Of a stretch of DNA of 35,778 nt, positions 6,974 to 32,000 are shown in pieces. The stretch is from assembly GCA_947378965.1 (NCBI GenBank), contig CANCMG010000041.1, forward strand, positions 1 to 35,778, read 5' to 3'. A model generated the notes under the pieces. That model saw only the letters and a list, made by a program, of their open reading frames with translations. It searched no databases and had not been told where the DNA came from. The DNA comes from Alcaligenaceae bacterium. Lineage in GTDB: Bacteria > Pseudomonadota > Gammaproteobacteria > Burkholderiales > Burkholderiaceae_B. Every line of letters starts with the position of its first letter. Position 1 is the stretch's first letter. A program made the translations under genes and the position numbers.

Positions 6974-7019
6974 AAGTTTTTTCTATGTCAATCTAGGGGC
7001 CGATTGACACCAAAAACTT
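6974..7019 (-). terminator. Strong hairpin at the 3' end of the halogenase gene
   Basis: An uninterrupted 8-bp stem TGTCAATC (6986-6993) pairs with GATTGACA (7002-7009) around an 8-base loop. Outside it, AAGTTTTT (6974-6981) can pair with AAAAACTT (7012-7019), which overlaps the halogenase stop codon (7018-7020). It is placed as a terminator for the minus-strand halogenase transcript. The tract after the stem is not a clean U-run on that strand, so efficiency is uncertain. Confidence 0.55.
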
Positions 7020-13100: not shown

Positions 13101-13161
13101 TCACCCATCAGGTTTGCAAGCCAAGAGGCTGAAGCATCAGCTTGGCGAGTCAAGAACCTTG
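13080..13161. repeat. Three loose repeats spanning the convergent gene ends
   Basis: Related 20-base blocks start at 13080, 13113 and 13142. The first and third share TTGGCGAGTCAAGA exactly; the second matches the first at 16 of 20 positions. The first includes the stop region of the oxidoreductase gene, and the third lies in the end of the glycosyltransferase gene, so parts of both C-termini are encoded by repeat sequence. Confidence 0.65.
13121..13145. terminator. Bulged hairpin between convergent genes
   Basis: CCAAG (13121-13125) pairs with CTTGG (13141-13145), and inside it CTGA (13129-13132) pairs with TCAG (13137-13140), leaving a 3-base bulge and an AGCA loop. The position between the two stops suits a bidirectional terminator, but no T-run follows. 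Confidence 0.3.
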
Positions 13162-14490: not shown

Positions 14491-14501
14491 AATAGACACA
14501 T

Positions 14502-15080
14502 ATGACTAATACAAATTTTGAAGACTCCGTTCCGTTTCTTGTTGTCAGAAACCACGAAGAGCAATATTCAATTTGGCCTGTCGGTCGCGAGATCCCATTA
14601 GGTTGGGTGGATTGTGGCTTTAACGGTGATAAGCAGTCCTGTTTAAAACACATCGAAGCCGTCTGGACAGATATGCGTCCGCTCAGTCTGCGCAAACAAA
14701 TGGATACGCTGGCTAACACAGCTGCAAAAGATCCTCTTCCAGCGTCAGAGTCGTCGGGGCCCGATCTAGTCGAGCGGTTGTGCGCAGGATCGCACAAGGT
14801 GCGGGTGGTGGTTCGCCCTGAGGGCTCAGCTACGGCTTTCAAAGAGTCCCTTGAACGTGGCTTTGTTCAGATTGAGTTCACACAAACGCAGGGCGGTACG
14901 GTCCTTGGTTTTTCTGTAGACACTCAACAAAGTGACCTCTCTAAAATGTCAGATAGCAAGCAAAGCGGTGAGGTTGTGATTGTTGGTACGCTCACACTCA
15001 ACTTTCAAAAAGTCAGATGTGTCGCCACAATTGACTTACAAGACTTAACGGGCGAGGGCAAGTTAGAGTTGATTCACTAG
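14502..15080 (+). CDS. MbtH-like protein with an unrecognised C-terminal extension domain
   Basis: Residues 1-66 are a complete MbtH domain: NHEEQYSIWP, then GWVDCGF and CLKHIEAVWTDMRPLSLR, with the three invariant tryptophans Trp25, Trp35 and Trp55. MbtH proteins bind NRPS adenylation domains and are often required for their solubility and activity; the partner here is presumably the A domain of the 3131-residue synthetase or A domains outside the window. Standalone MbtH proteins are about 62-75 residues, whereas this one is 192. After a polar linker (about 67-80) come some 110 residues rich in predicted beta strands (KVRVVVRPEG, FVQIEFTQ, VVIVGTLTLNF, VRCVATIDLQDL) that I do not recognise. 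The gene is convergent with the last megasynthase gene, 11 bases between stops. The frame is open throughout with no sign of a frameshift, so the fusion appears genuine. Confidence 0.88.
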   Translation: MTNTNFEDSVPFLVVRNHEEQYSIWPVGREIPLGWVDCGFNGDKQSCLKHIEAVWTDMRPLSLRKQMDTLANTAAKDPLPASESSGPDLVERLCAGSHKVRVVVRPEGSATAFKESLERGFVQIEFTQTQGGTVLGFSVDTQQSDLSKMSDSKQSGEVVIVGTLTLNFQKVRCVATIDLQDLTGEGKLELIH

Positions 15081-15091
15081 TTTTCTCTTTG

Positions 15092-18000
15092 TCACTTGTT
15101 GAGCAGCTTTAGCAGCTCTTCGGGCGATTGACCGCTCGCAAGAAGAGCTTCAACTTCTTCTTCAGTCATGTTTTCAAGCGCATCTAGGTCAAGCGCCAGG
15201 TCACTTGTTTCATCACTTACCTTTGTTTGACTGTCTATCAGTGCCGACTGTTCAGCAATGCTCGGCGCGCTGAAAAATAATCCTAAATCTACAGTCGCTT
15301 GAAATGTCTGCTTGATCTGACGGATGAGTTGAGCCGCAAGCAGCGAGTGCCCACCAAGATCAAAGAAGTTGTCATGCACACCGATGCGGTTGATCTTCAG
15401 ACAGTCTTGCCAAAGTTTGGCTAGCCTCAACTCAGTGGGCGTTGAGGCATCAATGAATTCAGCCTCTAGCTCTGGGCGCTCATACAACTCGTGCGTGGCT
15501 TGCTGCGAGCCTGCGTTGACAGACGAATGAATAGCTTGTTCTTTACGCCGCTGAGGGTGACTCGTGGCGATGGTAACAGAGGGCAGGGGAAGCAGATCTA
15601 AAGCTTTACGAAACGCGCTCATACCTTCTTTGGCGCTAAAGTCATGGCTGGCAAGGTCAGTGTCTACTTTGTCAGTCCAACGGTCCCAGTTCATCACCAT
15701 CCATGGATTAGAGCTCTGTTGGGCTTTGAAACTGATAAAGGCGTTGGCATAACTGCCTGCCATCGCGTGCATTGTTTGACCAATGCCGCCAATTTTTGCT
15801 GACAACGAAGACATCACGATACAAAAGTCTAATGGCCTCGCATCAACGTAGCGGCTGAGTTGTTCTAAAAATTGGCCCTGTGCTTCAAGATAGGTCTGAC
15901 AGTCCTTTAGACTTAATTCGTTGACTAAGCCAGTCGGTTTTGAATCGAGCATATCGTAGCAACAGATCAAACCATCCAAGTCGGTTGGTAGGTGTGCGCA
16001 CGCGTCTAAAGACTGACCCAAGCTGTCGGTATGCATGGGATCTAGATGTAGCGTAAAAATCTGTGAGCCTGATTTTTCTAAGCGTTGAACGAACGCAGTG
16101 AGGTCAGCATTATTTTTGAAATCTGAATCTCTGCTGCTCAGAATCAACTTACCCTGAACTGCCTCTGCAAGTACCTGTGCGAACGCTTGGCCAACACCAT
16201 CAAGTCCTCCAAGAACTAAGTAGGTTTTCTTGGGCTCAATCTGAGGTTGTAACGGTGTTTGATCTAACGGAAGCGCTTGGAGGCTGAGTTCCCAGTACTC
16301 GTTTGCTCGCAGGGCAACGATACGTTGCGTACTATCGTGTATGAGCCACTGATATATTTTTTGCAAGGTCGATAGATCGAGAGCTTCCACGTCTAACAAA
16401 GCGCAGCGCGTTGCCGTTTGCTCGTACTCTAAGCTGGCAATCAGCCCCAGGATGCTCGCTTTGACGGGGCTCAGCTTGTTAGAGCCAAAAGGCCCTGTTA
16501 TGCCCTGGCCAACGAAGCGCAGGGTTCTGGATTCTGTATCTTGCAATGCGCCAAGTGCTTTGGCAATATTCAAGAAATTAAGCGTGCTATCGAGATTCGA
16601 CTGAATGCTTTCGTCTAGATACACAATGTTGTCAAAGCGTTGTTCTTCTTTCTTGAGGGTCGAAAAAAGTGTGTCTAGTTGAGCACGATTGTTGAAATCC
16701 AAGGCAAACTGATTGGATGAGCTCTGCGTAAATTCTGACTTTTCACAGGCGAGAATGACCTGATGTCCGTTTGCTTGCAGTTTATGTTGCAAGGCCGTCA
16801 CTGCTGTACTTTGCGAACCAAATATTAAAAACGCTGAGCTCTTCTCTGTATTCGTATTCAGTAGTGTCAACGATTTCCACGAGTCGGTATAAAACCATTT
16901 GTTCGGATCGACTTGTCGAACCGCTAAGGCACTCGCAGTTTGTGCCGTATCTTTTTGTGTCTTGCCAGCCTCGATCCAGTATTTCGTTCGCTCAAAAGGA
17001 TAGGTAGGCAGTGAGACCTTAAAACGTCTCTCTTCTTGATAAAACGCCTCCCAGTCAATCGTTTGATGTTTGACCCATGCCTTTGCCAGACTGTTAAGCA
17101 TAAAGTCTGTCGAGCTGGTTTTTTCATGCGCTGTGGGTAGGCTGTAGGCAACCGGCGCTGTGGTGTCGTCTTGCGCTTGATTCAAACGGGCCAATTGACC
17201 TAGCGTTTTTCCTGGACCCACTTCTATCAGAAGGGCGCTCTCAGTATCAGTGAGAATTGTTTGAATGCCTTGACTAAAACAAACGGCTTGTCTGAGGTGT
17301 CTGCACCAATACTGTGGGTCGGTAGCGTCTTGTTGAGTGATCCACGTGCCACTTAAGTTTGACACGTAAGGGACGCTCGGTGCTCTGAGCGTCACACTAG
17401 AAAGAACTTTCTCAAATGATTTCAGCATCGGCTCCATCATCGAAGAATGAAACGCGTGTGACGTTCTTAATATTTGACTCTCGACGCCCTGTTGCTGTGT
17501 CAGTATCGACTGGTAGTCTTCGATAGCGTCTTTAGATCCTGAAACGACGCACAAGGCTGGGCTATTTTCTGCCGCAATTTCGACCGCTAACTTCAATGAC
17601 TGAATATCTTGTCGAATGCGCTCAGCCGACAGTGGCACAGACAACATCGCGCCAGTCGCCATGCCTTGCATGAGTTGACTACGGCTTGCCACTAATTTAA
17701 GGGCATCTTCTAGCGACAACACCTTAGCGACGCATGCTGCAACATACTCTCCTAAGCTGTGACCGATCATCGCTTTGGGCTGAACCCCCCAATGGATCCA
17801 CAGTTTTGCTAAGGCATATTCGATGGTGAAGAGGCAAGGCTGAGTGATGTGCGTTTCTTGCAGATGTAAATTGGCTTGGGCAACATCGTTTGTATGCGGA
17901 AACAAAATTGTTCGAATATCTTGATTCAATAGCGGCTGCAAAAGCACTGCGCAGGCATCAACCGTTTCTTTGAAAGTCTGTTCGTCTTGATACAGTTCTT

Positions 18001-19636
18001 TGGCCATCCCGGCATACTGACTACCTTGTCCCGGAAACATGAAGACCGCATTGGAAAAGTGTTTGTCTTCTGAAAGGTTGTACTTCTCAGTTTGCAAAAT
18101 ATCCACGGCCTCTTGCGCAGACTGACAGGTAAAGGCGAGTCGTTGTGCAAAGGCCTTTCTACCACGTGCGAGAGTGCTGGCAACGTCCGCGATGTTGATA
18201 TCTGGATTTTGTGAAAGGTGATTAGCAAGACTTTTCGCGTAGTCCGCCAAACCATGTTTGGTCTTGGCCGACAGGGTAATCACGTGTCGGCTTCGGCTCG
18301 GCGAAGACGGCTCTGAAAGCGGCGCCTCTTCCAGGATGGCATGAGCATTCGTGCCCCCTACACCAAAAGAGCTGATCCCCGCGCGCCGAGGTTGCGCTGA
18401 GCGTGTCCACGCTTTAGGTTCATGCACGACATAAAAAGGGGTTTTTTCAATTTGTAGCTTTGGATTAGGTGCTTTCCAATTCAGACTCGGAGGTAAGAGT
18501 TCATGTTCTAACGCCAAGGTCGTCTTGATTAAGCCCGCTAAGCCCGCGGCTTTGTCTACGTGGCCAATATTTGACTTGACTGAACCGACGCCACAAAATC
18601 CTGTGCGGTTGGTGCTCGTTCTATAAGCCTGTGTTAACGCAGCAAGTTCGATCGGGTCACCTAACGGGGTCGAAGTGCCGTGGGCCTCTACGTAGCTGAT
18701 CGAGTCGGCCTCAACTTCGGCAACAGCTAGCGCTTCAAGAATCGCCTCAGCCTGGCCGTTCACGCTCGGTGCCGCATAGCCAACCTTATCCGAGCCATCA
18801 TTATTAATCGCGCTACCTCGAATCAGCGCGTGAATCTTATCTCCGTCATTGAGCGCATCTTCTAGTCGCTTCACAATGATGACGGCGGCACCGTTGCCAT
18901 CGATCAAGCCGCTTTGCGTCGAATCAAAAGGGCGGCAGTGCCTGTCGGGTGAGTAGGCAGAGCCCGCCTCATGTAGATGGCCAACTTTTTGTGGCAGGTG
19001 GATGGTGATCCCTCCAACCAGCGCCATATCCGATTGATAGGTCAACAGATGCTGACAAGCCAAGTGTGTGCTGACTAAAGAGGATGAGCAGGCTGTCCCA
19101 ATATCAATGGCCGGCCCCTTGATATTCATACTGTAGGCAATACGTGTGGGGACAAAGTCTTTATCGTTATAAATAGAGAGTTCAAACCCACCAACTTGTT
19201 CAAGTAAGTCGGGATTCGACATTAAGTTAACTGGCAGGTAGGTGTTCATGCCCGCACTGGTAAAGACCGCGATGCGTCCGGGATATTGCTCAGGGACGTA
19301 GCCTGCGTCTTCCATCGCCGCCCAAGAGCACTCCATCAGTACACGATGTTGAGGATCCATGAGTTCAGCCTCGCGCGGGGCGATACCAAAAAAATTGGCA
19401 TCGAATAACTCGACACCTTCAAGAATCCCTTTGGCTGCAACATAGTTGGGCAGATCAATCATCTCGGCGCTGACGCCGGCCTCGAGCATCTCTTCTTTAG
19501 TAAAAAGAGAAATGCATTCTTTTCCAGTCTTTAGATTGTCCCAAAATTGGCGTACGTCGGTCGCCCCAGGCATACGAACGGCAATGCCAATAATGGCGAT
19601 GCAATCAAGATTTTTACTAGATTCAGACTGATTCAT
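15092..19636 (-). CDS. Type I PKS module KS-AT-(degenerate KR)-carrier with C-terminal docking-like tail
   Basis: A 1514-residue extension module. KS about 9-435: Cys183 (DIGTACSSSL), His319 (EAHGTST), His359 (SNIGH); its LHEAGSAYSPDRHCRPFD stretch resembles KS domains that take chains from NRPS carriers. AT about 530-850: GHSLGEY with Ser627, HAFH at 727-730, hence malonyl-CoA. KR region about 915-1345: the nucleotide motif reads GGLDGVG, and the catalytic Lys, Tyr and Asn positions appear as Ala1252, His1290 and Gly1294, so ketoreduction is probably lost. Carrier about 1403-1470 with Ser1431 in DLGGHS. The end (LENMTEEEVEALLASG) looks like a docking helix, and there is no thioesterase. It starts 6 bases after the stop of the 3131-residue gene, so it is cotranscribed and should extend the Asn-bearing chain by two carbons. 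The next partner is not in this window. Confidence 0.93.
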   Translation of the reverse strand: MNQSESSKNLDCIAIIGIAVRMPGATDVRQFWDNLKTGKECISLFTKEEMLEAGVSAEMIDLPNYVAAKGILEGVELFDANFFGIAPREAELMDPQHRVLMECSWAAMEDAGYVPEQYPGRIAVFTSAGMNTYLPVNLMSNPDLLEQVGGFELSIYNDKDFVPTRIAYSMNIKGPAIDIGTACSSSLVSTHLACQHLLTYQSDMALVGGITIHLPQKVGHLHEAGSAYSPDRHCRPFDSTQSGLIDGNGAAVIIVKRLEDALNDGDKIHALIRGSAINNDGSDKVGYAAPSVNGQAEAILEALAVAEVEADSISYVEAHGTSTPLGDPIELAALTQAYRTSTNRTGFCGVGSVKSNIGHVDKAAGLAGLIKTTLALEHELLPPSLNWKAPNPKLQIEKTPFYVVHEPKAWTRSAQPRRAGISSFGVGGTNAHAILEEAPLSEPSSPSRSRHVITLSAKTKHGLADYAKSLANHLSQNPDINIADVASTLARGRKAFAQRLAFTCQSAQEAVDILQTEKYNLSEDKHFSNAVFMFPGQGSQYAGMAKELYQDEQTFKETVDACAVLLQPLLNQDIRTILFPHTNDVAQANLHLQETHITQPCLFTIEYALAKLWIHWGVQPKAMIGHSLGEYVAACVAKVLSLEDALKLVASRSQLMQGMATGAMLSVPLSAERIRQDIQSLKLAVEIAAENSPALCVVSGSKDAIEDYQSILTQQQGVESQILRTSHAFHSSMMEPMLKSFEKVLSSVTLRAPSVPYVSNLSGTWITQQDATDPQYWCRHLRQAVCFSQGIQTILTDTESALLIEVGPGKTLGQLARLNQAQDDTTAPVAYSLPTAHEKTSSTDFMLNSLAKAWVKHQTIDWEAFYQEERRFKVSLPTYPFERTKYWIEAGKTQKDTAQTASALAVRQVDPNKWFYTDSWKSLTLLNTNTEKSSAFLIFGSQSTAVTALQHKLQANGHQVILACEKSEFTQSSSNQFALDFNNRAQLDTLFSTLKKEEQRFDNIVYLDESIQSNLDSTLNFLNIAKALGALQDTESRTLRFVGQGITGPFGSNKLSPVKASILGLIASLEYEQTATRCALLDVEALDLSTLQKIYQWLIHDSTQRIVALRANEYWELSLQALPLDQTPLQPQIEPKKTYLVLGGLDGVGQAFAQVLAEAVQGKLILSSRDSDFKNNADLTAFVQRLEKSGSQIFTLHLDPMHTDSLGQSLDACAHLPTDLDGLICCYDMLDSKPTGLVNELSLKDCQTYLEAQGQFLEQLSRYVDARPLDFCIVMSSLSAKIGGIGQTMHAMAGSYANAFISFKAQQSSNPWMVMNWDRWTDKVDTDLASHDFSAKEGMSAFRKALDLLPLPSVTIATSHPQRRKEQAIHSSVNAGSQQATHELYERPELEAEFIDASTPTELRLAKLWQDCLKINRIGVHDNFFDLGGHSLLAAQLIRQIKQTFQATVDLGLFFSAPSIAEQSALIDSQTKVSDETSDLALDLDALENMTEEEVEALLASGQSPEELLKLLNK

Positions 19637-19642: not shown

Positions 19643-22600
19643 TTAGACATTGACCGGTTTGTTGGATGGCGTCTTGTTTAAACTGGCTTTTCTGCGATCC
19701 GCTTTTTTAAGAGTTGCCATTTTTTGCTTGGCAATTCTATCGGTAATCTGTTCAGACATCAGAGTGTCAGCTGTTGAGTCTTTAGAGATAAATTCGGCTA
19801 ACGCTTTAATAGTGGGGTATTTGAATAGATCAATCACCTGGCAGTCGGCAGGTAGCAAAGACTCTAGCTTTTTAAAGGCCTGCAGAATGAGCAGAGAATT
19901 ACCACCAAGATCAAAAAAATTATCTGTCGGGTTGACCTGAGTACAGCCCAGTACCTCACACCAGACCTTGGCGATTGCGATTTCTCGCTCTCCCTGTGGT
20001 GTCTGGCTGGTTGCTGTGTCAATTGGCTCAAGCCCTGGCGCTGGTAAAGCTCGGACATCCACTTTGCCGTGGCTAGAAAGTGGCATCTCGGTCACCAGTA
20101 CGAAAGCCGTAGGCACCATATATTCTGGCAATTGAGTTTTCAAGGCATCGCGTAATTGTTGCGCAGTCAGGCTCTCGCCACGGTGACAGCTGAAATAGGC
20201 GACTAGGCGAATCACACCAGGGCGATCCTCGCGCAGCATGACGGCGGCTTCTTTGACCCCAGCAATTTGTGCCAAAGCCACCTCAATTTCACCTAGTTCG
20301 ATGCGATAACCGTTCAGTTTGATTTGATGATCTTTACGCCCTAAGAAAACTAAGTCGCCGTTCGAAAGATAGCGAGCACGGTCGCCAGTTTTGTACAAGC
20401 GCGCGCCTGGGTTGTTCTCGTCTTGGCAGAACGGATCTGGGATAAACGATGCCGCAGTGTGAGAGGGACGATCCAGATAGCCTCGCGCCAGACCTAAGCC
20501 ACCAATATACAAATCTCCTGCAATGCCAGCTGGTAGAAGTTGTAAATTGGTATCAAGCACATACATCCGCATGCCTTCAATGGGCTTGCCAATCGGCACT
20601 AAACCTTGCACCGAGTCTTTTGTTTCGAACACACAGCAGCCGACCACCGTCTCGGTTGGGCCGTACTCGTTCACGATGCTGACCTGACCACTGTTTAACC
20701 AAGGGTTCACTGCAGACGCCTGTAGTGCCTCACCACCCAACACCAAGGCATGTGTCAGTGCGGTGTTGCTGAGCTTGTCGGTCTGTTGTAGTGAATTAAG
20801 TATTTCAAGATGAGCCGGCGTAATTTTGATAAAACTAAATTGGTAAGGTGAGCGATTTAAGCTATTCAAGGCTTGTAACTCATCACCATTGGGCATCAGA
20901 ACAATTTTGTTGCCCGCCATAAACGGAACAAAAATACTCGTGATGGTGGCATCAAAACTAAAAGACCCTAAAACGGGCGAACCATCGGCTTGCTCAGCAT
21001 GATAGGCGTCTTTAGCCCAACTTAAGTAATTGCTGAAACCCTCGTGCGTGATCATTGCCCCTTTCGGTTGGCCCGTAGAGCCTGAGGTATAGATCACATA
21101 CGCGAGGTTGTGAGCATGGATGCTGACCGAAGGATTGGTGCGCGCCTTCAGTTGGATGGCGTCGAGCTCTTGATCAATGCAACAAGATTTTTCTGCTGGG
21201 AACGAGAGCGATTGAAAAATGGCTTGCTCGGTGATGAGCAACTCAATCTTGGCATCTTCAAGAATATACGTCAGACGATTTTTTGGATAGCTTGGATCTA
21301 GCGGGACATAGGCGCCACCCGCCTTCAGGCAAGCCAGCATCGACACAATCATTTGCCACGAACGTGTCAGGCAAATGCCAATACGTTGATCGTTTTTTAG
21401 CCCAAGACTCAGTAAGTGGTGTGCAAGTTGGTTGGCCTGTGCGTTTAATTCTGCATAGGTCAACGTGACCTCGTTACCGCTCACAAGCGACACAAGCGCA
21501 ATGGCATCAGGATGCTGGGCGACGCGTTGATTCCAAACTTCAATGAAAGACGATAACTGTGGTTGGCGTTGTGCGGCATTCCAAGTCGTTAATTGAGTCT
21601 GTGCGTCATGCGGATTGACCAGCCCAATATTGGCATTGCTAATGTGCGGGTTTTTGACAACTGTCTCTAAAATTGAAAGGTAAGACTTCAATAGGCTTTC
21701 AATCGTTGAAGCCTCAAACAGATTGGTGTTGTAGTCACACTCTAGAACAACATGATCACGCTTTAGATTCGCGGTAAAGGTTAAATCCATTCGAGTATAG
21801 GCAATCGGCTGCTGTTGCATATCGACCGTTAGGCCATCAATGACTTGCGCTTCATTCAGACGTTCGAGATTAAAAATCACATTAATCAAGGGCGAGCGAC
21901 TGATATCCCGGGGCAAGTTCAACTGATTCAGCAGTCGCGCGAAGGGGTAGTCTTGGTGCTCGTACGCTTGCAACAGTTGCTGCTTGATTGTTTGCAGGTA
22001 TGCCGCAAAGGTATCGCTAGGCGTTAACACGCTTACGATCGGAAGCAAATGCACGCAGTAGCCAACTAATGACTCCGAACCACTCATGCTACGACCTGTG
22101 TAAGGTGCACCAATCGCAATCCGTTTTTGTTCACTTAAGCGATGCATCAACACAGAAAATGCTGCGAATAAAACCATATATAGCGTACTGGCATTTTTAC
22201 CAGCAAGTTCTCGTACGGCTTTGAGTAATGTTGGGTCAATGTGCGCCCAGGCTCGTGCCCCCTGATACGTTTTAACCTGAGGTCTCGGAAAATCGTAAGG
22301 TAAGGTCAAATCAGTCACAGGTGTTGAAAATTGATTTAACCAGTACGCTTCGTGTGCTTGGGTGACGGCGTCGGTCTCGAGATTGGTTTGCCACTGCAAA
22401 AAATCTCGGTACTGCAAAGCAGGCTTTGCTACCAGCGGTAAACCCTTTTTCAGGTTGGCATAATGTTGAATGATCTCGTGCAGCACAACCCCCATAGACG
22501 GGCCATCCGAGATAATGTGATGGCTAGACAGCGCAAGCACATGATGGTCCGTGGCGAGTTTCAGTAACGATGGCTTAAACAGAGTCGCTTCATTAAGCTG

Positions 22601-25600
22601 AAACGGTGTGTTGGCCTGCAACAGAAACCACTCGTTCAGAGCACTCGAGGGGTCCGCGCGCTCACTGAGATCAATCTGATCTAAATGTAAGGTTTCGGGA
22701 GCCATCACGTGTTGCTCGTTGCCTTCGGCATCAAGCCAGGTTCTGAGTGATTCGTGGCGATGGATACAGGCTTGAACAGCGGTGTTGAGAAGAATCGTAT
22801 CGAGCTGGCCTTGCAGCGAGACAGCACCCGGGTCGTTGTACGCGAGATTTCCTTCTTGGTTCATTTGGGCGATGAGCCATAACTGCTTTTGCGCCTCACC
22901 AAGAGGAAAAGTGCTTCTCGCTTTTAAAAGACGGGCTTGATAGACGTCTTTAAGCTTGTTAATGTGAGGCAAGCTATCCAATACTTTTTGCGCATTCACG
23001 CCAAAGTCGATAAAACAGGCTAATTCTGTAACGCCCATTTGCAGCATGACATCGACAATGGGTTCGACAGTGGCCGCCGAGCCAATCAGTGCACTGGTCG
23101 CCACGTATTTTTCGTACGCCTTGTTGACAATGAAGTCTTTGTCTTCTTTTGATGCGCGATTGATATCTTGGACAGGGCCTAAACCTGCAGCCATTTTTTG
23201 AAAAAGATGGATGCTGGAGAGCAGATAGTCACACATTGGTTTGCGTGCTTCTTCAATCGCTTTTTCAGCATTGTCTTCTAGATAGGTATGAATCAGGACG
23301 GTAATCCGAGCTTGACTCAGGTCGTGTCCATGAGCAGCGTAGGCTTGCTTGTAGAGACGAATGTTTTTTGCCAAGTCTTCAAGAGACTGGCCCATTAAGT
23401 TGGTCAGTATATTGAGCCCTAGCTCACCTGCTTTTTGGTAAGAGTCAGGATTATTGACAACGGTGAGCCAAATTGGCACCTGTTCTTGCTTAGGACGAGG
23501 AAACGTGCGTAAGACGACGTCACTGTTGTTGCCACCTTTACGTGAGATTGAGCCGCCCGACCAGAGATGTTTGACAGTCTTAATCGACTCAAACATCACA
23601 TTACGATTCTCACTAAACGAATCAGGGGCAAACACGAAATCGTTTGGATGCCATCCTGAGGCAAAACTAATGCCGACACGCCCGTCAGAGAGATTGTCTA
23701 CAAGCGACCACTCTTCGACAATGCGAATCGGGTCATGCAAGGGCGCCACGACGCTACCAGCGCAGATTTGAATGCGTTTGGTTTCGCGTGCGACCGCAGC
23801 TGCCAAGACAGCAGGATTAGGCGAGAAGCCGCCAAATTCATCGAAGTGACGCTCGGGGATCCACACGGTACTAAAGCCATGAGCATCCGCGTACTGCGCA
23901 CCATCCATCAGTAATTGATATTTGCCCGCAGCGTTATTGGCGTCGTAGTTACCAAAATAAAACACACTGAAATCTAAGTGCTTGGCACTGCCACCCGCTG
24001 CAATATTGAGGTCAGAGAGCGATCCAGAATGGCTTAATTTCGACTGTTGACGAAACCATGCCCTCTCAGAGGGCGCCTCCTTTTGTGTCGCGTTAGTTTC
24101 GAGTGCTTTCACAGTCGAAAGGGTTGAGGTAGGAGCAGCCTGTTTGATATAGCCGCCGTCACGCAGTGCAAATACGGTGTCTTTGACCGCTTTGACGACA
24201 TCGTCTAAATCTTGATCGGTGTGAGCGGTCGATAAGAAGCAGGCGCGCCACTCCCAGATGTAGACTCCTTTTTCAAGCAACTGGTAGTAGAACATTTCCA
24301 AGTTGCCCGAAAACTTGAATTGAAAAGTCGACGCAAAGTGCACGACTTTGATTGGGACGTTTTCAGCTTCAAAGAATTGATTTAAGGTGCTGGCGAGTGC
24401 CGCAGTGCGGCGGTTTAAGTTCTCTTGTAAGGCAGGCCCCTCGGCTTTGAGCTTTCTCAACGTGACCAAGCAGGTTGCCATTGACAGCGGATGTTGACAG
24501 AAGGTGCCGCCAAAATAGGTTCGGGTTTCTCGAGGATATGACGCGTCGCCATATTCCCAATAGCCGCCATCGATACCGCCCATGAAGCGATCCGAACCCG
24601 CTACGGCGCCAATCGGTAAGCCACCGCCAATAATTTTTCCGTAGGTGGCGAGATCTGCCTTGATGCCAAGCAGGCCTTGCACGCCGGCGGGATGTGCTCT
24701 GAAGCCGCTGACCATTTCATCAAAGATCAGGGCGACATCTTTTTCTTGCGTCAGTGCTCTTAACTCTTTTAGAAACTCAAAGGGTTGTAGATCAAGACGT
24801 CGACTTTGTACGGGCTCAACGAGCACCGCGGCTAACTCATGTGCGTGTTCACGAATAATATCAAGCGATTTTTGGGCGCCGTATTCTAAGACCAGCACAT
24901 CTTTCGCAATATTGTCTGGAACGCCTGGGGCGAGAGGTTCAGAGACGAACTCTCCGTTAATGATGCTGGTCTTGACCAAGGTGCCGTCTGAGTGACCGTT
25001 ATAAGCACCATCGAAAATGACAATCTTGTTGCGACCGGTCTTTGCTCTGGCCAAACGCATCGCGATCATCACGGCCTCTGTGCCAGAGTTCGTAAAAGCG
25101 ACGCGGTCGTGTCCGGTGATTTCAGTGAAGAGCTCTGTAATTTCGCCCATGTGAATCGAGCGAGGGCCTAGTTGAAAACCATGCTCTAACTCTTTTTGAA
25201 TCACGCCCTCAAGAAACTCGGGCTTGCTCCCAAAAAGTAGTACGCCAAAGCCCATCGTCAGATCGACGTAGTTATTACCGTCAACGTCCCAGATCCGTGA
25301 GCCGGTCGAATCGACTCCGGTGATGGGATACAAAATCTCTTTGGTAGAGAATCTGAAGCCGATACTGGCGCGACTATCTGCCAGACCTTTTCTGCTCGCT
25401 TGTACCAGCGCCTTAGACTTTGGCGTTTTTTTCTGATAGCGATCAATCAGATTATTCAGATAGGTGCTTTGCTGTGTCGTTAAGTTTCCTACCGTCGGAG
25501 TGATCGGGATATTAAGTGCTTTTAACGGCGATGAGCGGTCTTCTGATTGGGCTGGTGCTGAAGCAGAGGGGGTCGCCGTAGGCTGTGCTGCAACAGCGAC

Positions 25601-28600
25601 GTGAGTGGTAGCCGGCTTTGCGACTGCAAGTGCTTGAGACTGAATCGCTGGGCTCGGCTGTATCAGCGCTGCAGGTTGTGGCAGCGTTTGCAGGCCAGCT
25701 TGACCCAGCGCTGCTGCGTGCATCAGCGACAACTGCTGCGACATTAACTGCGTTTGTGCCAGAATCAACTGGCTCAGGGCTGAGCCCTCTTGTTGGCCGA
25801 AGTTGAGCGGCGCTGGCATTGACATGGCAGCCATGGCGGGTGCCTGCGTGAACAAAGCAGCAGGTATGCTGCTTGGCGCCGCTGAGGGTGTCACGACTTG
25901 TTGTGCGAGGGCTGCAACCGGTGGGGGGCTCACGCTCAGGGAAGTTGCCGGCGCCGGCGCCGGTGCGGGTGCTGCAGCGGGTGCTGTCTGTGTCGCCTGA
26001 AGCGAGTTCAGATAGTGCGCAATGGCGCTGACTGAACTAATTTCTTCAAAGAACTGCCTGATTTCAATTTTGACCCCAAAATTGTCCTCAATCACTCGCG
26101 CTCCAGATAGAAGCACAAGAGAATCGGCTCCCATCTCTACAAAGGGTGAGTGAATATCGATCTCTTGGGCGGATACCCGAAAGAGTTCTGCAAATAGTTG
26201 CAGTAGACGATTCAGAATGGAATCGTAGTGATCGACAACTGGGGTAGGCTGTTGTAGACCAGGTGAAGTTGGGGCATTCATGGAGTGTTGTTCCTTGAGG
26301 TGAATCCAGTAGCGTTGACGTTGAAACTGATACGTCGGTAAATGAGGTGCGCGTTGGCTTGAGCCAAAATTCCAGTGAGTCCAATCGATCGGAAAACCAA
26401 GCGAATAGAGCTTAGCGGCGGTGTTTGCGACAACCACTTCATCAGACTGATAGCGCTGAAGGCTAGGTAGCCAAGCCAGGACATTGAGTTGAGGCTGTCC
26501 AAGATTCGCCAAGATCGCATTGGGACCAATTTCGATGACAAGATCTGGTTTAGCACTCTTCAGGTTCTCGAGTGCTTTCGCAAATAGTACGGGCTCGCGG
26601 TAGTGACGCCGCCAATAGCTAGGCGATATATTGGTGCGCGCATCGAGCATCTGCCCAGTGAGGCTTGAGAAAAACGCTAGTGTTGGCGCGTGGTAGGTCA
26701 AGCCCTTGGCAAACGTCTCAAGCTCTTCGAGGATTGGATCCATCAGTGGCGAGTGAAACGCGTGCGTGACCGTCAGGGGATGCGTCTCGATCTTTAGCGC
26801 TTGGCATTGCGCGCTGATTGTCTGCAAAGCTGTTTTGTCACCCGACAACACGATACTTTTTTCGCTGTTGATGACTGCAACGCTTACGTGCGCAGCATGC
26901 GCTTGAACCAGTGGTGCAATGTTTTCTAGAGTTGAAAAAACCACCAACATCGAGCCACGATTGTCTAAGGTATCGGTGAGTCGTCCGCGCTCGGCAACGA
27001 TATGTAGCGCGTCTTTGAGGCTCAGCACTCCGGCTACGCACGCTGCGGCGTATTCTCCTAAGCTATGCCCTGCTACAGCACAAGGCGTCACACCTAGCGC
27101 CGTCCACATCTGGCTTAGGGCATATTGAATACAAAATAGCGCAGGCTGCGCGTATTGCGCCTTTGCATTCAGCAACCGGCTTGCGTCTTCGTCCTCAGCG
27201 TGCATGAGCTGTAATAACGACGTATCCAGGATGCCATCCAGGATGCTGCAACACTCATCTAAGGCCTTGGCAAAGCTCGGTTGTTGCTGATAGAGCTCTT
27301 TGGACATCCCCGAATAGATGGAACCCTGGCCACCAAAGACAAAGGCGACTCTGGGAGCCTTTTTAATTTCTGCTCGAGTGGTGTGTATGTCGAGGTTTGT
27401 CTTGTCTGCCGAATATTGGTTCAGCAGCTCAATCGCTTGCTCTTTGCTTCGTACCGTGAAGGCAACGCGATGTTTGAAATGATCACGATGACGATTACTG
27501 CTTAGGCAGAGGGCATTTAGCGAAACGTCTGTCGCACCTAAAAATTGGCCGTATGCCTTGACTGTCTGTATCAAGCCGTCTTTGCTTTTTGCAGAGAGTG
27601 CCATGATCGACAGCCGCCCATCACTGGGTGACGCAGCGGGCTCAACAGGCGCTGCAGCCTCTTCAATGATCAAATGGGCATTGCTTCCGCTCGCTCCAAA
27701 GGCACTTAAACCTGCTCGTCTTAACGTACCCTGAGACCGCCAGGGTTGTAGTTCAGTAACCGGTTGCAGGTTCAGTTCGTTCCAAGGGATACGACTACTA
27801 GGCGTTTGAATATGCAGCGTAGGAGGTAACTCGCGATGCTCAAGCGCCTTCAGTAGTTTGATGAGACCCATCACCCCCGCCGCTGACTCGAGGTGACCGA
27901 TATTTGACTTAATCGAGCCCACCAACAAGGGGCGATCTCTTTGCTCGGCTTTGCCAATGACAGCGCCGAGCGATTGAGCCTCGATCGGATCACCCAAGGG
28001 AGTTCCAGTGCCGTGGGCCTCGACGTAATCGATGTCGTGAGGCTGAAGACCAGACTTCAGCAGTGTTTGGCGAATCAGTTTTTGTTGGGCCTGACCATTG
28101 GGCACGGTAAAGCCGCTACTGGCACCGTCTTGGTTGACACCCGTTGCGCGTATGACGCCAAGGATGTTGTCGTTGTTCGCCACTGCATCAGAGAGGCGTT
28201 TTAAAACGACGATGCCACAGCCTTCGCCTCGAACGTAGCCATTTGCGTCCTCACTAAAGGTCTTGCACTTACCATCTGCAGACATCATCCCCGCAGCTGA
28301 CAAGGTCACGTTCAGTAAGGGAGAGAGCGTAAGGTTCACGCCACCAGTCAGGGCAAGGTCGCAGTCCTTTGCCCTCAGTGAGGTGCAGGCCAAATGAATC
28401 GCAGTGAGCGAAGAGGAGCAGGCCGTATCCACTGCCATGCAGGGTCCTTGCAGCCCCAACACGTAAGAGATTCTTCCGGCACAGGCATTGAGCGGTGTGC
28501 CAGTATTGAAGTAAGGGTTGCCATCTCCTTCTCCGTCCGAGCAAGCTTGCAGCAGGCCATAGTCGCTCGAAGTGACTCCCACGAAGACTCCAGAGGCACT

Positions 28601-29038
28601 TGCAACGAGCGAAGAGGGTGGAATCCCTGCGTGCTCGAGTGCCTCCCAGGCGACTTCAAGTAGCAGTCGTTGCTGAGGATCCATCCCTTCAGCCTCTCGG
28701 GCTGAAATCCCAAAAAAACTGGCATCAAATTTGTCTGCGTGTTCGACAAAGCCTCCGCGAAGGGTATAGGCCTTGCCGGGCGTACCTGGTCGCGGATCAT
28801 AATAATCCTGAGCGTTCCAACGCGTTTTTGGAATGTCGGTAATGGCGTCGCGTCCTGCGCGAACCAATTGCCAAAGCTCTTCTGGATTTTTCACGCTAGG
28901 CGCACGGCACGCCATCCCAACTACCGCAATGGGCTCGGCAGACAGCGACTTGGTTTGCTCAAGCTCTTTGCGCAGTAATTGAATGAGCGAATAAGCCTTT
29001 TGCAAGGGGCTCGCGACGGTTGAAGACGAGTCACTCAT
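19643..29038 (-). CDS. Hybrid PKS-NRPS: KS-AT-ACP-aminotransferase-LLM monooxygenase-C-A(Asn?)-PCP
   Basis: A 3131-residue megasynthase. N-terminal coiled-coil docking helix (12-30). KS 35-460: Cys207, His342, His382. AT about 560-880: Ser659, HAFH 759-762 (malonyl). ACP about 937-1013, Ser973 in GADS. Ala/Pro-rich linker 1016-1165. Aminotransferase of the GSA/class-III fold about 1215-1625: FDEMVSGFR, PLP Lys1468 in ATYGKIIGGG. Luciferase-like monooxygenase (TIGR04020 type) about 1688-2035. Condensation domain about 2042-2470: HHIISDG with His2174 catalytic. Adenylation about 2485-3000: SGSTGQPKG, YKTGD, Lys2992. PCP about 3013-3085, Ser3048. The pocket residues read D-A-T-K-V-G-E-V-G-K (Asp2696, Ala2697, Thr2700, Lys2738, Val2766, Gly2768, Glu2791, Val2799, Gly2800, Lys2992), close to the Asn code. 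With no KR, the beta-ketone should go to a beta-amine as in MycA/ItuA, and the monooxygenase may add an alpha-hydroxyl. The C-terminal tail is strongly basic. Confidence 0.95.
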   Translation of the reverse strand: MSDSSSTVASPLQKAYSLIQLLRKELEQTKSLSAEPIAVVGMACRAPSVKNPEELWQLVRAGRDAITDIPKTRWNAQDYYDPRPGTPGKAYTLRGGFVEHADKFDASFFGISAREAEGMDPQQRLLLEVAWEALEHAGIPPSSLVASASGVFVGVTSSDYGLLQACSDGEGDGNPYFNTGTPLNACAGRISYVLGLQGPCMAVDTACSSSLTAIHLACTSLRAKDCDLALTGGVNLTLSPLLNVTLSAAGMMSADGKCKTFSEDANGYVRGEGCGIVVLKRLSDAVANNDNILGVIRATGVNQDGASSGFTVPNGQAQQKLIRQTLLKSGLQPHDIDYVEAHGTGTPLGDPIEAQSLGAVIGKAEQRDRPLLVGSIKSNIGHLESAAGVMGLIKLLKALEHRELPPTLHIQTPSSRIPWNELNLQPVTELQPWRSQGTLRRAGLSAFGASGSNAHLIIEEAAAPVEPAASPSDGRLSIMALSAKSKDGLIQTVKAYGQFLGATDVSLNALCLSSNRHRDHFKHRVAFTVRSKEQAIELLNQYSADKTNLDIHTTRAEIKKAPRVAFVFGGQGSIYSGMSKELYQQQPSFAKALDECCSILDGILDTSLLQLMHAEDEDASRLLNAKAQYAQPALFCIQYALSQMWTALGVTPCAVAGHSLGEYAAACVAGVLSLKDALHIVAERGRLTDTLDNRGSMLVVFSTLENIAPLVQAHAAHVSVAVINSEKSIVLSGDKTALQTISAQCQALKIETHPLTVTHAFHSPLMDPILEELETFAKGLTYHAPTLAFFSSLTGQMLDARTNISPSYWRRHYREPVLFAKALENLKSAKPDLVIEIGPNAILANLGQPQLNVLAWLPSLQRYQSDEVVVANTAAKLYSLGFPIDWTHWNFGSSQRAPHLPTYQFQRQRYWIHLKEQHSMNAPTSPGLQQPTPVVDHYDSILNRLLQLFAELFRVSAQEIDIHSPFVEMGADSLVLLSGARVIEDNFGVKIEIRQFFEEISSVSAIAHYLNSLQATQTAPAAAPAPAPAPATSLSVSPPPVAALAQQVVTPSAAPSSIPAALFTQAPAMAAMSMPAPLNFGQQEGSALSQLILAQTQLMSQQLSLMHAAALGQAGLQTLPQPAALIQPSPAIQSQALAVAKPATTHVAVAAQPTATPSASAPAQSEDRSSPLKALNIPITPTVGNLTTQQSTYLNNLIDRYQKKTPKSKALVQASRKGLADSRASIGFRFSTKEILYPITGVDSTGSRIWDVDGNNYVDLTMGFGVLLFGSKPEFLEGVIQKELEHGFQLGPRSIHMGEITELFTEITGHDRVAFTNSGTEAVMIAMRLARAKTGRNKIVIFDGAYNGHSDGTLVKTSIINGEFVSEPLAPGVPDNIAKDVLVLEYGAQKSLDIIREHAHELAAVLVEPVQSRRLDLQPFEFLKELRALTQEKDVALIFDEMVSGFRAHPAGVQGLLGIKADLATYGKIIGGGLPIGAVAGSDRFMGGIDGGYWEYGDASYPRETRTYFGGTFCQHPLSMATCLVTLRKLKAEGPALQENLNRRTAALASTLNQFFEAENVPIKVVHFASTFQFKFSGNLEMFYYQLLEKGVYIWEWRACFLSTAHTDQDLDDVVKAVKDTVFALRDGGYIKQAAPTSTLSTVKALETNATQKEAPSERAWFRQQSKLSHSGSLSDLNIAAGGSAKHLDFSVFYFGNYDANNAAGKYQLLMDGAQYADAHGFSTVWIPERHFDEFGGFSPNPAVLAAAVARETKRIQICAGSVVAPLHDPIRIVEEWSLVDNLSDGRVGISFASGWHPNDFVFAPDSFSENRNVMFESIKTVKHLWSGGSISRKGGNNSDVVLRTFPRPKQEQVPIWLTVVNNPDSYQKAGELGLNILTNLMGQSLEDLAKNIRLYKQAYAAHGHDLSQARITVLIHTYLEDNAEKAIEEARKPMCDYLLSSIHLFQKMAAGLGPVQDINRASKEDKDFIVNKAYEKYVATSALIGSAATVEPIVDVMLQMGVTELACFIDFGVNAQKVLDSLPHINKLKDVYQARLLKARSTFPLGEAQKQLWLIAQMNQEGNLAYNDPGAVSLQGQLDTILLNTAVQACIHRHESLRTWLDAEGNEQHVMAPETLHLDQIDLSERADPSSALNEWFLLQANTPFQLNEATLFKPSLLKLATDHHVLALSSHHIISDGPSMGVVLHEIIQHYANLKKGLPLVAKPALQYRDFLQWQTNLETDAVTQAHEAYWLNQFSTPVTDLTLPYDFPRPQVKTYQGARAWAHIDPTLLKAVRELAGKNASTLYMVLFAAFSVLMHRLSEQKRIAIGAPYTGRSMSGSESLVGYCVHLLPIVSVLTPSDTFAAYLQTIKQQLLQAYEHQDYPFARLLNQLNLPRDISRSPLINVIFNLERLNEAQVIDGLTVDMQQQPIAYTRMDLTFTANLKRDHVVLECDYNTNLFEASTIESLLKSYLSILETVVKNPHISNANIGLVNPHDAQTQLTTWNAAQRQPQLSSFIEVWNQRVAQHPDAIALVSLVSGNEVTLTYAELNAQANQLAHHLLSLGLKNDQRIGICLTRSWQMIVSMLACLKAGGAYVPLDPSYPKNRLTYILEDAKIELLITEQAIFQSLSFPAEKSCCIDQELDAIQLKARTNPSVSIHAHNLAYVIYTSGSTGQPKGAMITHEGFSNYLSWAKDAYHAEQADGSPVLGSFSFDATITSIFVPFMAGNKIVLMPNGDELQALNSLNRSPYQFSFIKITPAHLEILNSLQQTDKLSNTALTHALVLGGEALQASAVNPWLNSGQVSIVNEYGPTETVVGCCVFETKDSVQGLVPIGKPIEGMRMYVLDTNLQLLPAGIAGDLYIGGLGLARGYLDRPSHTAASFIPDPFCQDENNPGARLYKTGDRARYLSNGDLVFLGRKDHQIKLNGYRIELGEIEVALAQIAGVKEAAVMLREDRPGVIRLVAYFSCHRGESLTAQQLRDALKTQLPEYMVPTAFVLVTEMPLSSHGKVDVRALPAPGLEPIDTATSQTPQGEREIAIAKVWCEVLGCTQVNPTDNFFDLGGNSLLILQAFKKLESLLPADCQVIDLFKYPTIKALAEFISKDSTADTLMSEQITDRIAKQKMATLKKADRRKASLNKTPSNKPVNV

Positions 29039-32000
29039 CTTGCATCCTTTTTGGCAGTCAGGGATGAAAGTTCACCCTCAATGAGCGCCGCAATTTCGCT
29101 GTCAGAGAGTTCGTTTTCAAGCGCGGGTGTTGGTGTGTGTGTCATTGCCGTCTGAGGTGTCTGTGCCACGTGCTCTTTTGCTAAGGTCTCTTCAGTGAAG
29201 AGCAACGACAGTAGATATTGGGTGAGTCGCTCGACAGTAGGAAAATCAAAAATTGTTGAGGCGACTAGTTTGCAACCCAGTTGTTGTTCTAGCCGAGTTC
29301 GTAGTGAAACCGCCATTAAAGAGTCCATGCCAAAATCAAAGAACCCTCTATTCGTATCAAGCGTTGAACTGTCAGACATTTCAAGCAAGGCGCACACTTG
29401 TTGGCTGATATATTCACTCAACGCCTCGGCACGATTCCATGCGGGCATCTCTCGAAGTTGATTCAGTAGCAAGGGCGCACTAGCGCTTTCGGTAGGCGTC
29501 ACACTACGCACCAACAGATCAAACAGGGATTGTTGGTGGTGAACCGAGTATGTATTTTTGAGTTGAGTCCAGTTCGCGCTAACAATCGCAAGTTGACTTT
29601 GATTCAACAACAAAGCTTGTTCAAGGTGCTGAAGGGCTTCGCTCGGGGGCAATGTCAAAAATCCGCTATTCAAGACCTTCTCTGAACCGGCGGTGCTTTG
29701 AACCAGACCGCCGCTTTCCCAGGGACCCCAGTTGATGCTAATGGCAGGCAGGTTCAGTGCTCGACGATGTGTTGCGAGCCCATCTAAAAATGCATTGGCA
29801 GCAGAGTAGTGCGCCAGTTGAGCTGAGCCAAGTACGCTTGAAATAGATGAATAGAGTACAAAAAAATCGAGGTCTAGTGCCTTTGTTTGCTCGTGTAAAT
29901 TCCAAGCGCCTTGGACCTTGGATTCGAACATGCTGTGCATGGCTTCTATAGTGAGATCTTTACACCAGATTGGAGTTGCCAGACCTGCCGCATGCACGAC
30001 GCCCTTGATTTGACGTTTATTCTTAATGAGAAACTCAAACGCCTGCCTAACTTGCGAGGCGTTTGAGACATCGCAGGGCATGAACAATACTTTTGTACCA
30101 AGAGCTTCAATCTCTTGGATCGCTTGCTGTGCGCTTTCGCTCGGGATGTTTCGACTCAGCAAGATCACTTCACTGGCATGTTTGGATGCAAGAAACCTAG
30201 CGGTTTGAAGACCGAGTGATCCTGTACCACCCGTGATCAGGTATGTTGCCTCTTCGGCAATTTTTAGATTTTTAAAGGGTACGCCTGCGACCGGCTCTAG
30301 ACGGGCCACATATTTTTTATGTTGACGCAGTTGAATGTGACTTTCGGTGGGATTAGCAACGAGCTCAGCAAAAATATGCGGTGTGCTTGCCTCGTCATAC
30401 TCTAAAACACCGCCCTGAATGGTTGGGTTCTCTAGAAATAACGAACGCGCAAAGCCGTTTAGCATGCTAGAAAATGGTGTCGAAAAATCCTCGCGAGTCA
30501 AGGAGTCGGATCTTTTCACCAAAAACCAAAGTGGAATTGCAATGGCCAACTGTGTTAACGCACGGCTGACATATGCCGCGTTCAGTAACATCTGTTCTCC
30601 AAACGTCGGATGAAAACTTGTTTCATTCCAATCCTCTGGCCACATGAAGACAACACTCGTTAGCGTGCTCGTCTGATGAACATCTTGAATCACTTTGCGA
30701 TAGTCATTTGACGAGAGTCCGTCAATCACCCAAAGTGTTTCTGATTTTTTGTCGTAGCTATGGGCAGGGACGACATAAATATTTGCGGTGTCTGCGCCGT
30801 TCAAGGCACCCGCGGGTACAGCTTCGATATTCGACACGAAAATCAGACAATGCCCAGAGCCTGGCGCAGGCGTCGCATTCGCCATTAAAGCTGCTTGTTG
30901 TTGCCAAATCGGTCGATACAGTGGTTGTATCGTTTGCTGTTTGCTCTGCTGATATTCGTCTATTAAAACTTGGCAGATTCTATTCAATACTGCGTCATCT
31001 TTCTCTTCAAAATGACTGCGTTGCGAGAGATGTTCACGAAGGTTGCTGACATTGCCGCCTTGAATGAGTTCAAGCATCTTGAAGGATGGCACGCTTGACT
31101 TCGCTGCTGTGGTTTGGCTGGCGTTAAACCAATGGCGTTGCCGCTGAAAAGCATAGGTCGGCAAAGAGACAAAGGGTGCAGTCGTAACGCCATACACTTT
31201 CAGCCAGTCGATCGCGAGCCCCGCAAGATACAGTTGCGATAGGTTCTCAGTGATCGCTTGAACTGCGCCTTTATTTTTTCTTAAGCTCGGCATCAAATTC
31301 AAGCGCTCGGCGTGTTCACTTTGCCCGATCATCCCCAACAAAATGGGCTGAGGTCCAATTTCCATCACGACACCGATATAGTCGTTCAAGACGTTATCGG
31401 TGATTTTGGTAAATTGCACGGGCTGCCGAATGTGGTCTCGCCAATAACGTGCGGTTTGAATCTCGTCTTGCGCCAAGGCACCACTGATGTTTGAAAGCAG
31501 GGTGATCTTGGCGGACCGAAAAGTGATCGTTTCGGCAAAAGATAAGAACTCACCAAGCATTGGCTCCATCAGCGCCGAATGAAAAGCGTGCGATACGGTC
31601 AGCTCGCGGTACTTGATGCCTGCCTGATTAAGCGTCGACTGAAAGTCTGTGATGGCGCTGACATCGCCGGACACCACAGTCTCTTTGGCTGTATTGAGTC
31701 CTGCAATCTCAAGTGAGCCTGACGTATCAAGTTTCGTGAGTAGCAATCTCACATCATCAGCGGCGGCAAAAACCGCCATCATTCCACCTGTGACTTTCAG
31801 TTGCTGCATCAGACGAGCACGCGTTGCGATCAGCTTTAGACCGTCTTCAAGCGAAAAGACACCAGCGACGCAGGCGGCAACGTACTCGCCGACGCTATGC
31901 CCCGCTACAACGTCGGGTTTGATTCCCCACGACAACCAAAGTTGCGCCAGTGCATATTCAAGAGCAAAAAGTGCCGGTTGTGTATTGACAGTTTGATTCA

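Follow-up and report, generated by a model that had tools for sequence, protein, structure and literature searches.

We propose that a single 3131-residue protein from a freshwater member of the Burkholderiales, in the genus of Sheuella amnicola, probably forms a beta-amino acid and loads asparagine as one step in the assembly of a cyclic lipopeptide, on a line working like microsclerodermin and pedein synthesis. The protein is a hybrid of polyketide synthase (PKS) and nonribosomal peptide synthetase (NRPS), encoded on the minus strand at 19643-29038 of the stretch analyzed here (the window), which spans all 35778 bases of contig C41, one of 189 in a draft genome of 4.5 Mb. Several features can be read from the sequence itself: the order of domains (KS-AT-ACP-AMT-LLM-C-A-PCP, in which AMT is a class-III aminotransferase and LLM a luciferase-like monooxygenase), a single acyl carrier protein (ACP) domain, an Asn-like code in the adenylation (A) domain, a dead ketoreductase (KR) in the next module, and further modules on contig C35 of the same genome and in homologous clusters. 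The chemistry of the pathway is what we infer from them.

In the scheme that we envisage, a polyketide chain started by a fatty acyl-AMP ligase (FAAL) would arrive from the preceding KR module with a 5-hydroxyl and undergo one malonyl extension. Because the module is without a KR, the chain would stay on Ser973 of the ACP as a beta-ketoacyl thioester. The LLM, with FMNH2 and O2, would hydroxylate C2, and the AMT, with pyridoxal 5'-phosphate (PLP), would turn the C3 ketone into an amine; the condensation (C) domain would then pass the 3-amino-2-hydroxyacyl group to Asn. Gly, a D-configured residue X (Trp by analogy), Gly, and a Gly extended by C2 to gamma-amino-beta-hydroxybutyric acid (GABOB) would follow, and the thioesterase (TE) would close the ring on the 3-amino group. 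Since the first Gly module in this genome is without an N-methyltransferase (NMT) domain, Gly is predicted in place of sarcosine. The first-pass annotation of the window, made from the sequence alone, is supported overall, yet it had stopped at a beta-amino acyl-Asn unit; the neighboring modules point further, to a microsclerodermin-like ring in which Asn is extended and probably cyclized.

Architecture of the synthetase

The gene is one uninterrupted open reading frame from an ATG start, and the Pfam and NCBIfam matches (Table 1) confirm the domain order in one chain that had been read beforehand with its strand unstated. The AMT and LLM calls are also upheld by profile matches, a test named in advance: Aminotran_3 matches the former, and Bac_luciferase and TIGR04020 the latter, with TIGR04020 scoring 475 bits against a cut-off of 244.45 and covered over its whole length (model positions 1-341 of 341, NCBIfam). 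A giant synthetase in one frame is unlikely to be an assembly artifact, because single frames of like length recur in four congeneric genomes (3143, 3145, 3152, and 3069 residues) and in two Methylobacter genomes (3118 and 3129 residues). In a fifth congener, Sheuella amnicola itself (contig C5, locus L015), the hybrid is split into an 837-residue KS-AT protein (8409-10922) and a 2161-residue ACP-AMT-LLM-C-A-PCP protein (10939-17424), and the 2796-residue hybrid of an Acidimicrobiia genome has no AT match.

Two stretches of the protein match carrier domains in Pfam, and Ser973 lies in the only carrier motif ahead of the C domain. Whether the two tailoring reactions share this serine had been left open by the first-pass annotation. 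As far as anatomy goes they do: because no other carrier precedes the C domain, amination and hydroxylation, if both take place in this module, must share Ser973. No KR, DH, or ER is among the 14 Pfam families listed for the protein at E 0.001. We rejected the idea that the layout is a new architecture, since PuwE of the puwainaphycin synthetase of Cylindrospermum alatosporum has it already: the available part of its description places a PKS module without reductive domains, an aminotransferase, a monooxygenase, and a single NRPS module on the same polypeptide (PMC4219810).

Predicted asparagine loading

Ten pocket positions of the A domains were read by motif and alignment. The code of the window, DATKVGEVGK, is Asn-like and near DLTKLGEVGK, which we take to be the reference Asn code, so that the earlier call of an Asn-type A domain stands. 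Within the clade of the window (congeneric genomes, the two Methylobacter, and one Acidimicrobiia), 11 of 11 rows have DA[TS]K[VI]GEVG at positions one to nine. These rows represent 10 distinct proteins, loci L012 and L082 holding an identical one; the tenth position is K in every row except L032, where it is N. On the strength of this constancy, we rejected the explanation that Asn is a misread code. Five remoter loci with both AMT and LLM read otherwise in their first A domain: DILQLGMIWK in L033, L036, and L049, which we take to be Gly-like; DFWNIGMVHK in L028, presumably Thr-like; and DAFFVGIVLK in L037, which we class as other. Judged by these codes, Asn loading is therefore a trait of the window's clade and not of AMT-LLM modules generally.

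Aminotransferase, monooxygenase, and the order of their reactions

By comparison with proteins of solved structure, both tailoring domains are of already known in-line kinds, because their best relatives lie far ahead of the next ones. For the AMT, this is the AMT of MycA from mycosubtilin synthesis (6KFM, E 8.1e-136), followed by the glutamate-1-semialdehyde aminomutases (6.9e-53); the PLP lysine motif TYGKIIGGG is common to the window's AMT and 6KFM in the alignment, and the likeness to MycA noted at first pass is thus borne out. For the LLM, it is PuwE (6KET, E 3.6e-131), other luciferase-like enzymes reaching only 3.2e-24.

We surveyed 41 named genome loci for their AMT and LLM layout; the domains of relatives were named by tblastn, with domains from the window's genome and from congeneric genomes as queries. 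Two of the loci, L024 and L032, come from different contigs of a single metagenome-assembled genome (MAG). AMT and LLM stand together in 14 loci, LLM without AMT in 21, and AMT without LLM in 6. Within the AMT-less LLM loci, 13 of the 21 have the LLM inside an A domain (L038, L041, L044-L048, L050, L051, L053-L056); 12 of these 13 are from Bacteroidota or Gammaproteobacteria, and they form one branch of the LLM tree (91/79). By Pfam, three more (L035, L039, and L040) have the LLM among PKS domains that include a KR. The first of them, L035 (6389-18817), is a Scytonematopsis KS-AT-ACP-LLM-KR-C-A line with an LLM akin to those of AMT modules. The tree was given 43 sequences and has 40 rows, L024, L034, and L030 having dropped out because their LLM is short or absent; L058-L062 were left out. 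In its labels, L043 is marked as a KR module though the contig ends after the LLM, and L032 as AMT-LLM, with the AMT on the other contig of the same MAG. The LLM of L035 adjoins a Nostoc AMT-type LLM with a support of 99/95, within a 99/99 group made up of 18 AMT-type rows and L035. Two LLM genes above the TIGR04020 cut-off, L010 (genome G003) and L011 (G001), come from genomes without AMT; in the tree they fall outside every other row, at the end of a very long branch.

We lean toward the view that the acidic C2 of the beta-ketoacyl group is hydroxylated first, before amination. The LLM of L035 stands beside a KR and without an AMT, nested among AMT-type LLMs; because AMT and KR both use a beta-ketoacyl-ACP, the shared substrate of an LLM swapped between the two settings would most simply be this thioester, which favors hydroxylation first. 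The reverse order, in which the LLM hydroxylates the 3-aminoacyl-ACP or, later, the peptidyl product, is a possibility to be taken seriously, if a lesser one. It would follow the order of the domains in the chain, AMT then LLM, but domain order is not reaction order. It would also suit the LLMs inside A domains (13 of the 41 loci), which presumably meet an amino-acyl chain there. The three LLMs in KR settings without AMT speak against it, above all that of L035 with its 99/95 placement, as an amine is seemingly not needed there.

It is improbable, in our view, that the LLM is not a C2 hydroxylase at all but oxidizes a beta-hydroxyl to the ketone used by the AMT, with the 2-hydroxyl brought in by a hydroxymalonyl extender. 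Support for this comes from a review of the microsclerodermin (msc) pathway, whose section on microsclerodermin D gives the monooxygenase this other role, beta-hydroxyl oxidation, and so counts against our assignment (PMC6163206). In the window, the module has no KR match, and its ketone needs no oxidase. The AT carries the motif HAFH, which we take to mark the malonyl type and which argues against a hydroxymalonyl extender. PuwE's own PKS module also has no reductive domains, and the part of the description at hand links it with a 2-hydroxy product (PMC4219810). Hydroxylation of C2 by the LLM remains the assignment that we prefer.

The rest of the proposed assembly line

The PKS module that follows (15092-19636) has a KR that scores 80 bits in Pfam against 210 for the upstream KR. 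Of the aligned copies, 7 of 7 (the window, genomes G010, G019, and G022, Sheuella C5, and the two Methylobacter) lack the catalytic Tyr, which 3 of 3 control KRs retain; the Acidimicrobiia counterpart of this PKS, 1039 residues long, has no KR match. Because the KR is without its catalytic Tyr, a beta-ketone should stay after Asn has been extended by C2 in this module.

When half of the NRPS from a congener was searched against the genome, the strong matches fell on contig C35 and in the window. C35 encodes a 3710-residue NRPS with the codes DILQLGVIWK, DIGVIGEIMK, and DILQLGLIWK, of which the first and third are Gly-like; an epimerization-type (E-type) motif, HHLVIDGISW, follows the second module. 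Next come a 2932-residue protein with the order C-A(Gly-like)-PCP-KS-AT-KR-ACP-TE and a KS-AT-DH-ER-KR gene running off the contig. There are two amidohydrolases (both Amidohydro_2), one on C35 beside the synthetases (26088-27248) and one on contig C38 (21757-22935). C38 also has a type II thioesterase (20945-21724) and a loader 77% identical to the FAAL-ACP-KS-AT-DH-KR-ACP protein of G010.

Two homologous clusters display the order in full. That of Sheuella amnicola (genome G023, contig C5, 120071-163602) comprises a FAAL loader, a type II TE, KS-AT, ACP-AMT-LLM-C-A(Asn-like)-PCP, and KS-AT-PCP with a dead KR, and continues with C-A(Gly)-NMT-PCP, C-A(X)-PCP-E, C-A(Gly)-PCP, and C-A(Gly)-PCP-KS-AT-KR-PCP-TE. 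An Acidimicrobiia MAG (G063:C9, 36518-89323) has the same module order, colinear with it. In Methylobacter tundripaludum SV96, a single contig (G061:C2, 698973-793940) carries this set of modules in a different gene order, and an amidohydrolase (61%) stands beside the TE gene. The Gly-NMT (sarcosine) module is present in G022, Sheuella C5, SV96, and the Acidimicrobiia; in G022, the line is seen without a whole TE gene. Over 61 genomes (the window's own, 31 congeneric, 5 of the family, and 24 of the order), AMT occurs in 10 and LLM in 9 at 1e-60, with both in 7; an amidohydrolase occurs in 9, namely 7 of the 7 with AMT and LLM and 2 (G004 and G013) of the other 54; these genomes are kindred and often fragmentary, so the counts are not of independent events.

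Comparison with known pathways

Microsclerodermins are antifungal peptides described first from sponges and later from soil myxobacteria; the msc (microsclerodermin/pedein) pathway is that of Jahnella and Sorangium. In the section of the review that bears on it, the msc cluster of Jahnella has five PKS genes, two NRPS genes, and a hybrid, together with genes for an amidohydrolase presumed to close the pyrrolidone (mscE), a type II TE (mscJ), a major facilitator superfamily (MFS) transporter (mscK), a Trp halogenase (mscL), an Fe/alpha-ketoglutarate oxygenase (mscM), and a methyltransferase (mscN); its first NRPS module loads Asn and carries an aminotransferase and a monooxygenase (PMC6163206). 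In the couplings described for microsclerodermin synthesis, Gly-Trp-Sar-Pyrr is joined to a beta-amino acid-GABOB unit. As we read its direction, the ring has the order of the modules in the window's relatives: beta-amino acid, Asn plus C2, N-methyl-Gly, X, Gly, Gly plus C2, and closure on the amine.

The window and the msc cluster both have AMT and monooxygenase in an Asn-loading module. Here, the Asn module is followed by a PKS predicted to leave a beta-ketone, a plausible pyrrolidone precursor. On C35, the genome has Gly, then Gly with a PKS and KR for GABOB, then a TE, and an amidohydrolase and type II TE are present on C35 and C38; the window also holds genes of the Trp-halogenase and Fe/alpha-ketoglutarate oxygenase classes, with a tentative place in the pathway. 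The relatives have their modules in an order that fits the msc ring with N-methyl-Gly, Trp, Gly, and GABOB. There are differences as well. In msc, AMT and monooxygenase are assigned to an NRPS module (the gene list counts mscF with the NRPS genes and keeps the PKS genes separate), whereas KS-AT-ACP is fused on in the window; the msc starter is phenylacetate, whereas a FAAL is found here; and the window's genome differs in its first Gly module without an NMT domain and in the glycosyltransferase genes beside the cluster. Because sarcosine was looked for among the predicted residues and was absent, we regard this line as a variant working like msc and not as a member of the group. No myxobacterial locus appeared by title in the scan of genome contigs, plasmid and phage collections lying outside that search.

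Several observations weigh against this reading. Likeness to mscF-mscI was judged from the published gene list and the ring order, not from alignment. Sarcosine, said in the accounts at hand to be common to all microsclerodermins, is not predicted in the window's genome: no methyltransferase family matched in the C35 NRPS, the first Gly module included, though a separate N-methyltransferase was not looked for. The X codes are not recognized as Trp by any test; the second C35 code, DIGVIGEIMK, is not matched to Trp, while that module does have an E-type domain. In SV96, the genes for the NRPS and TE precede the loader, which is separated from the AMT-LLM gene by an extra frame. The amidohydrolase had no match at 1e-40 in the Acidimicrobiia and the second Methylobacter, 2 of the 3 outside genomes. 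Of the 61 genomes, 2 have a halogenase, in one case as a fragment where the contig stops; the idea that it is a constant component of the pathway is not supported. The line in the window's genome is split over contigs C38, C35, C158, and C41, with further PKS genes on C59, C23, and C125 that remain unplaced, and the joins between contigs rest on synteny with Sheuella C2, as set out below. The extra frame of SV96 (L103-L104, G061:C2 741308-767062), of NRPS/PKS type, is 8584 residues long and holds several more NRPS modules.

There is a small chance that the module belongs to a puwainaphycin-like beta-amino lipopeptide synthetase, the remaining molecule being unrelated to microsclerodermins. PuwE has the same non-reducing PKS-AMT-monooxygenase-NRPS layout in one chain and is the best solved match of the LLM. 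In its available description, however, the A domain is predicted to load Val, the upstream and downstream modules are others, and the host is cyanobacterial, against the Asn-like code in 11 of 11 clade rows (10 distinct proteins) here. A PKS with a dead KR after Asn, followed by Gly-NMT, X-E, Gly, and Gly-PKS-TE, is also unlike the descriptions of puwainaphycin at hand. In the LLM tree, from which PuwE itself is absent, the window groups with Methylobacter and Acidimicrobiia in a starred clade of 10 rows, and the Nostoc row lies outside it. A line working like msc accounts better for these modules.

Two other groups share parts of the module. The iturin-group enzymes MycA, ItuA, and BamA (6KFM, 6KFR, and 6KFU) load Asn and, like the window, join an in-line class-III AMT for a beta-amino fatty acid to PKS and NRPS modules in one chain; unlike it, they have the FAAL in the same chain, and no monooxygenase domain is named in the material at hand. 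In tychonamide and floridanemamide synthesis, as far as the available text goes, AMT and monooxygenase serve 3-amino-2-hydroxy polyketide residues with further hydroxyls, as here, but the hosts are cyanobacterial and the Athmu/Atpoa residue stands in a different, longer peptide (PMC13252402).

Contig joins in the source genome

Contigs C35, C158, and C41 likely form one row, because the gene order on a second contig of Sheuella amnicola, C2, aligns them: the C35 protein (64%) matches the first Sheuella PKS, C158 (64%) and C41 (58%) match the second, and the next PKS on C41 (63%) matches the third. Sheuella C2 speaks for the PKS row alone, since the part of it that was seen has no NRPS. Between C35 and C158, about 23 residues are missing. 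C158 and C41 share 41 residues of overlapping homology but only 57 identical bases. A plain contig overlap was not found: the 57 bases, which lie at the end of the window, correspond to C158 70-126, and the identity does not extend into the first 69 bases of C158. This join therefore rests on synteny. The ERs of the C35 (G000:C35 742) and C158 (C158 12) PKS genes are 97% alike. Recent gene conversion would account for such likeness, which may be the cause of the contig breaks.

We hold it unlikely that the cluster on this contig is in decay and yields no product in this strain, with loader, NRPS, and TE on other contigs: the split over four contigs and the example of Sheuella C2, which shows that such clusters can be without NRPS parts, would fit, but the large reading frames are unbroken, the AMT motif, carrier motifs, and A code are intact, the breaks fall in or near ER-KR regions with their two 97%-alike ERs, and every needed module kind except the N-methyltransferase is present in the genome.

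The C2 contig of Sheuella amnicola (G023:C2) carries a second, shortened cluster (L030, 6476-11329). It has three PKS genes and a 1617-residue KS-AT-ACP-AMT protein that ends right after the AMT, and then a glycosyltransferase; no LLM, C, A, or PCP follows the AMT, and there is no NRPS between the AMT gene and two amidohydrolases. The cluster might yield a beta-amino polyketide that is released as such, or it might supply the C5 line.

Implications

We suggest tentatively, as something that could well prove wrong, that free-living freshwater bacteria of several lineages (Burkholderiales of the Sheuella genus, Methylobacter, and Acidimicrobiia) make microsclerodermin-like antifungal rings, and that the window strain makes an unrecorded aliphatic, glycosylated, Gly-for-Sar variant with an LLM that hydroxylates the beta-ketoacyl-ACP before amination. 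If this is true, Sheuella amnicola NBD-18 and Methylobacter tundripaludum SV96 would be new sources of such peptides. The role of an in-line monooxygenase is directly testable here because the LLM sits in a module without a ketoreductase. Taken singly, the protein is a further case of the PuwE layout, with known parts, and of use for the question of hosts and for that of the monooxygenase. No paper joining microsclerodermin and Methylobacter was found in a search that had most subscription papers outside its reach. For Variovorax, one published cluster reaches an antiSMASH similarity of 21% to that of msc (PMC10946135, as far as its available text goes), and papers that mention microsclerodermin together with "Burkholderi" exist, among them PMC6022970.

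Neighboring genes

The preceding and following PKS modules flank the synthetase on its own strand, and candidate pathway genes lie beyond the following one (Table 1).

Table 1. Domains of the 3131-residue synthetase and neighboring genes in the window
Feature	Residues	Position	Strand	Basis and remarks
Hybrid PKS/NRPS, KS-AT-ACP-AMT-LLM-C-A-PCP	3131 in all	19643..29038	-	Pfam and NCBIfam
KS	35-410	27809..28936	-	Pfam: ketoacyl-synt 35-285, C-terminal half 293-410
AT (Acyl_transf_1)	566-871	26426..27343	-	Pfam; GHSLG at 657, HAFH at 759
ACP (PP-binding)	944-1010	26009..26209	-	Pfam; Ser973, carrier motif GADSL
Class-III aminotransferase (AMT)	1200-1640, as searched	24119..25441	-	Pfam Aminotran_3 1242-1596, E 6.7e-45; Lys1468 in YGKIIGGG
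Luciferase-like monooxygenase (LLM)	1690-2030	22949..23971	-	Bac_luciferase 1692-1991, E 6.2e-48; TIGR04020
Condensation domain	2042-2481	21596..22915	-	Pfam
Adenylation domain, code DATKVGEVGK	2504-2992	20063..21529	-	AMP-binding 2504-2855, AMP-binding_C 2917-2992
PCP	about 3015-3095 (limits set by hand)	19754..19996	-	Pfam and carrier motif; Ser3048 in GGNSL
Following PKS module KS-AT-KR-ACP, degenerate KR		15092..19636	-	Pfam and alignment
Preceding PKS module KS-AT-KR-ACP, intact-looking KR (predicted future 5-hydroxyl)		29035..33876	-	Pfam and alignment
Last part of the next PKS module upstream, ER (part)-KR-ACP, truncated at the contig end		34203..35777	-	Pfam; remainder most likely on contig C158
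MbtH-like protein with C-terminal extension	1-52 (MbtH-like)	14502..15080	+	Pfam
Glycosyltransferase (Glyco_transf_28 N / EryCIII-like C)		13137..14372	-	Candidate pathway gene; 56% homologue after AMT gene in Sheuella amnicola C2
Gfo/Idh/MocA oxidoreductase		12123..13100	+	Candidate pathway gene; 63% homologue adjoins the same Sheuella C2 gene
2OG-Fe(II) oxygenase (PF13759)		10243..11031	+	Candidate pathway gene; gene class as mscM
Tryptophan-halogenase family protein		7018..8511	-	Gene class as mscL; best solved matches LooH, PrnA

Beyond the synthetases, the window also holds a gene without a Pfam match and a Na/H exchanger. The MbtH-like gene runs for about 140 residues past its MbtH domain, on the strand opposite to the synthetases. 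Among the relatives, two MAG contigs (L022 and L060) are titled "Bordetella parapertussis"; L022 appears to be the same as contig C29 of G027, from the genus of Sheuella amnicola, so its label looks wrong.

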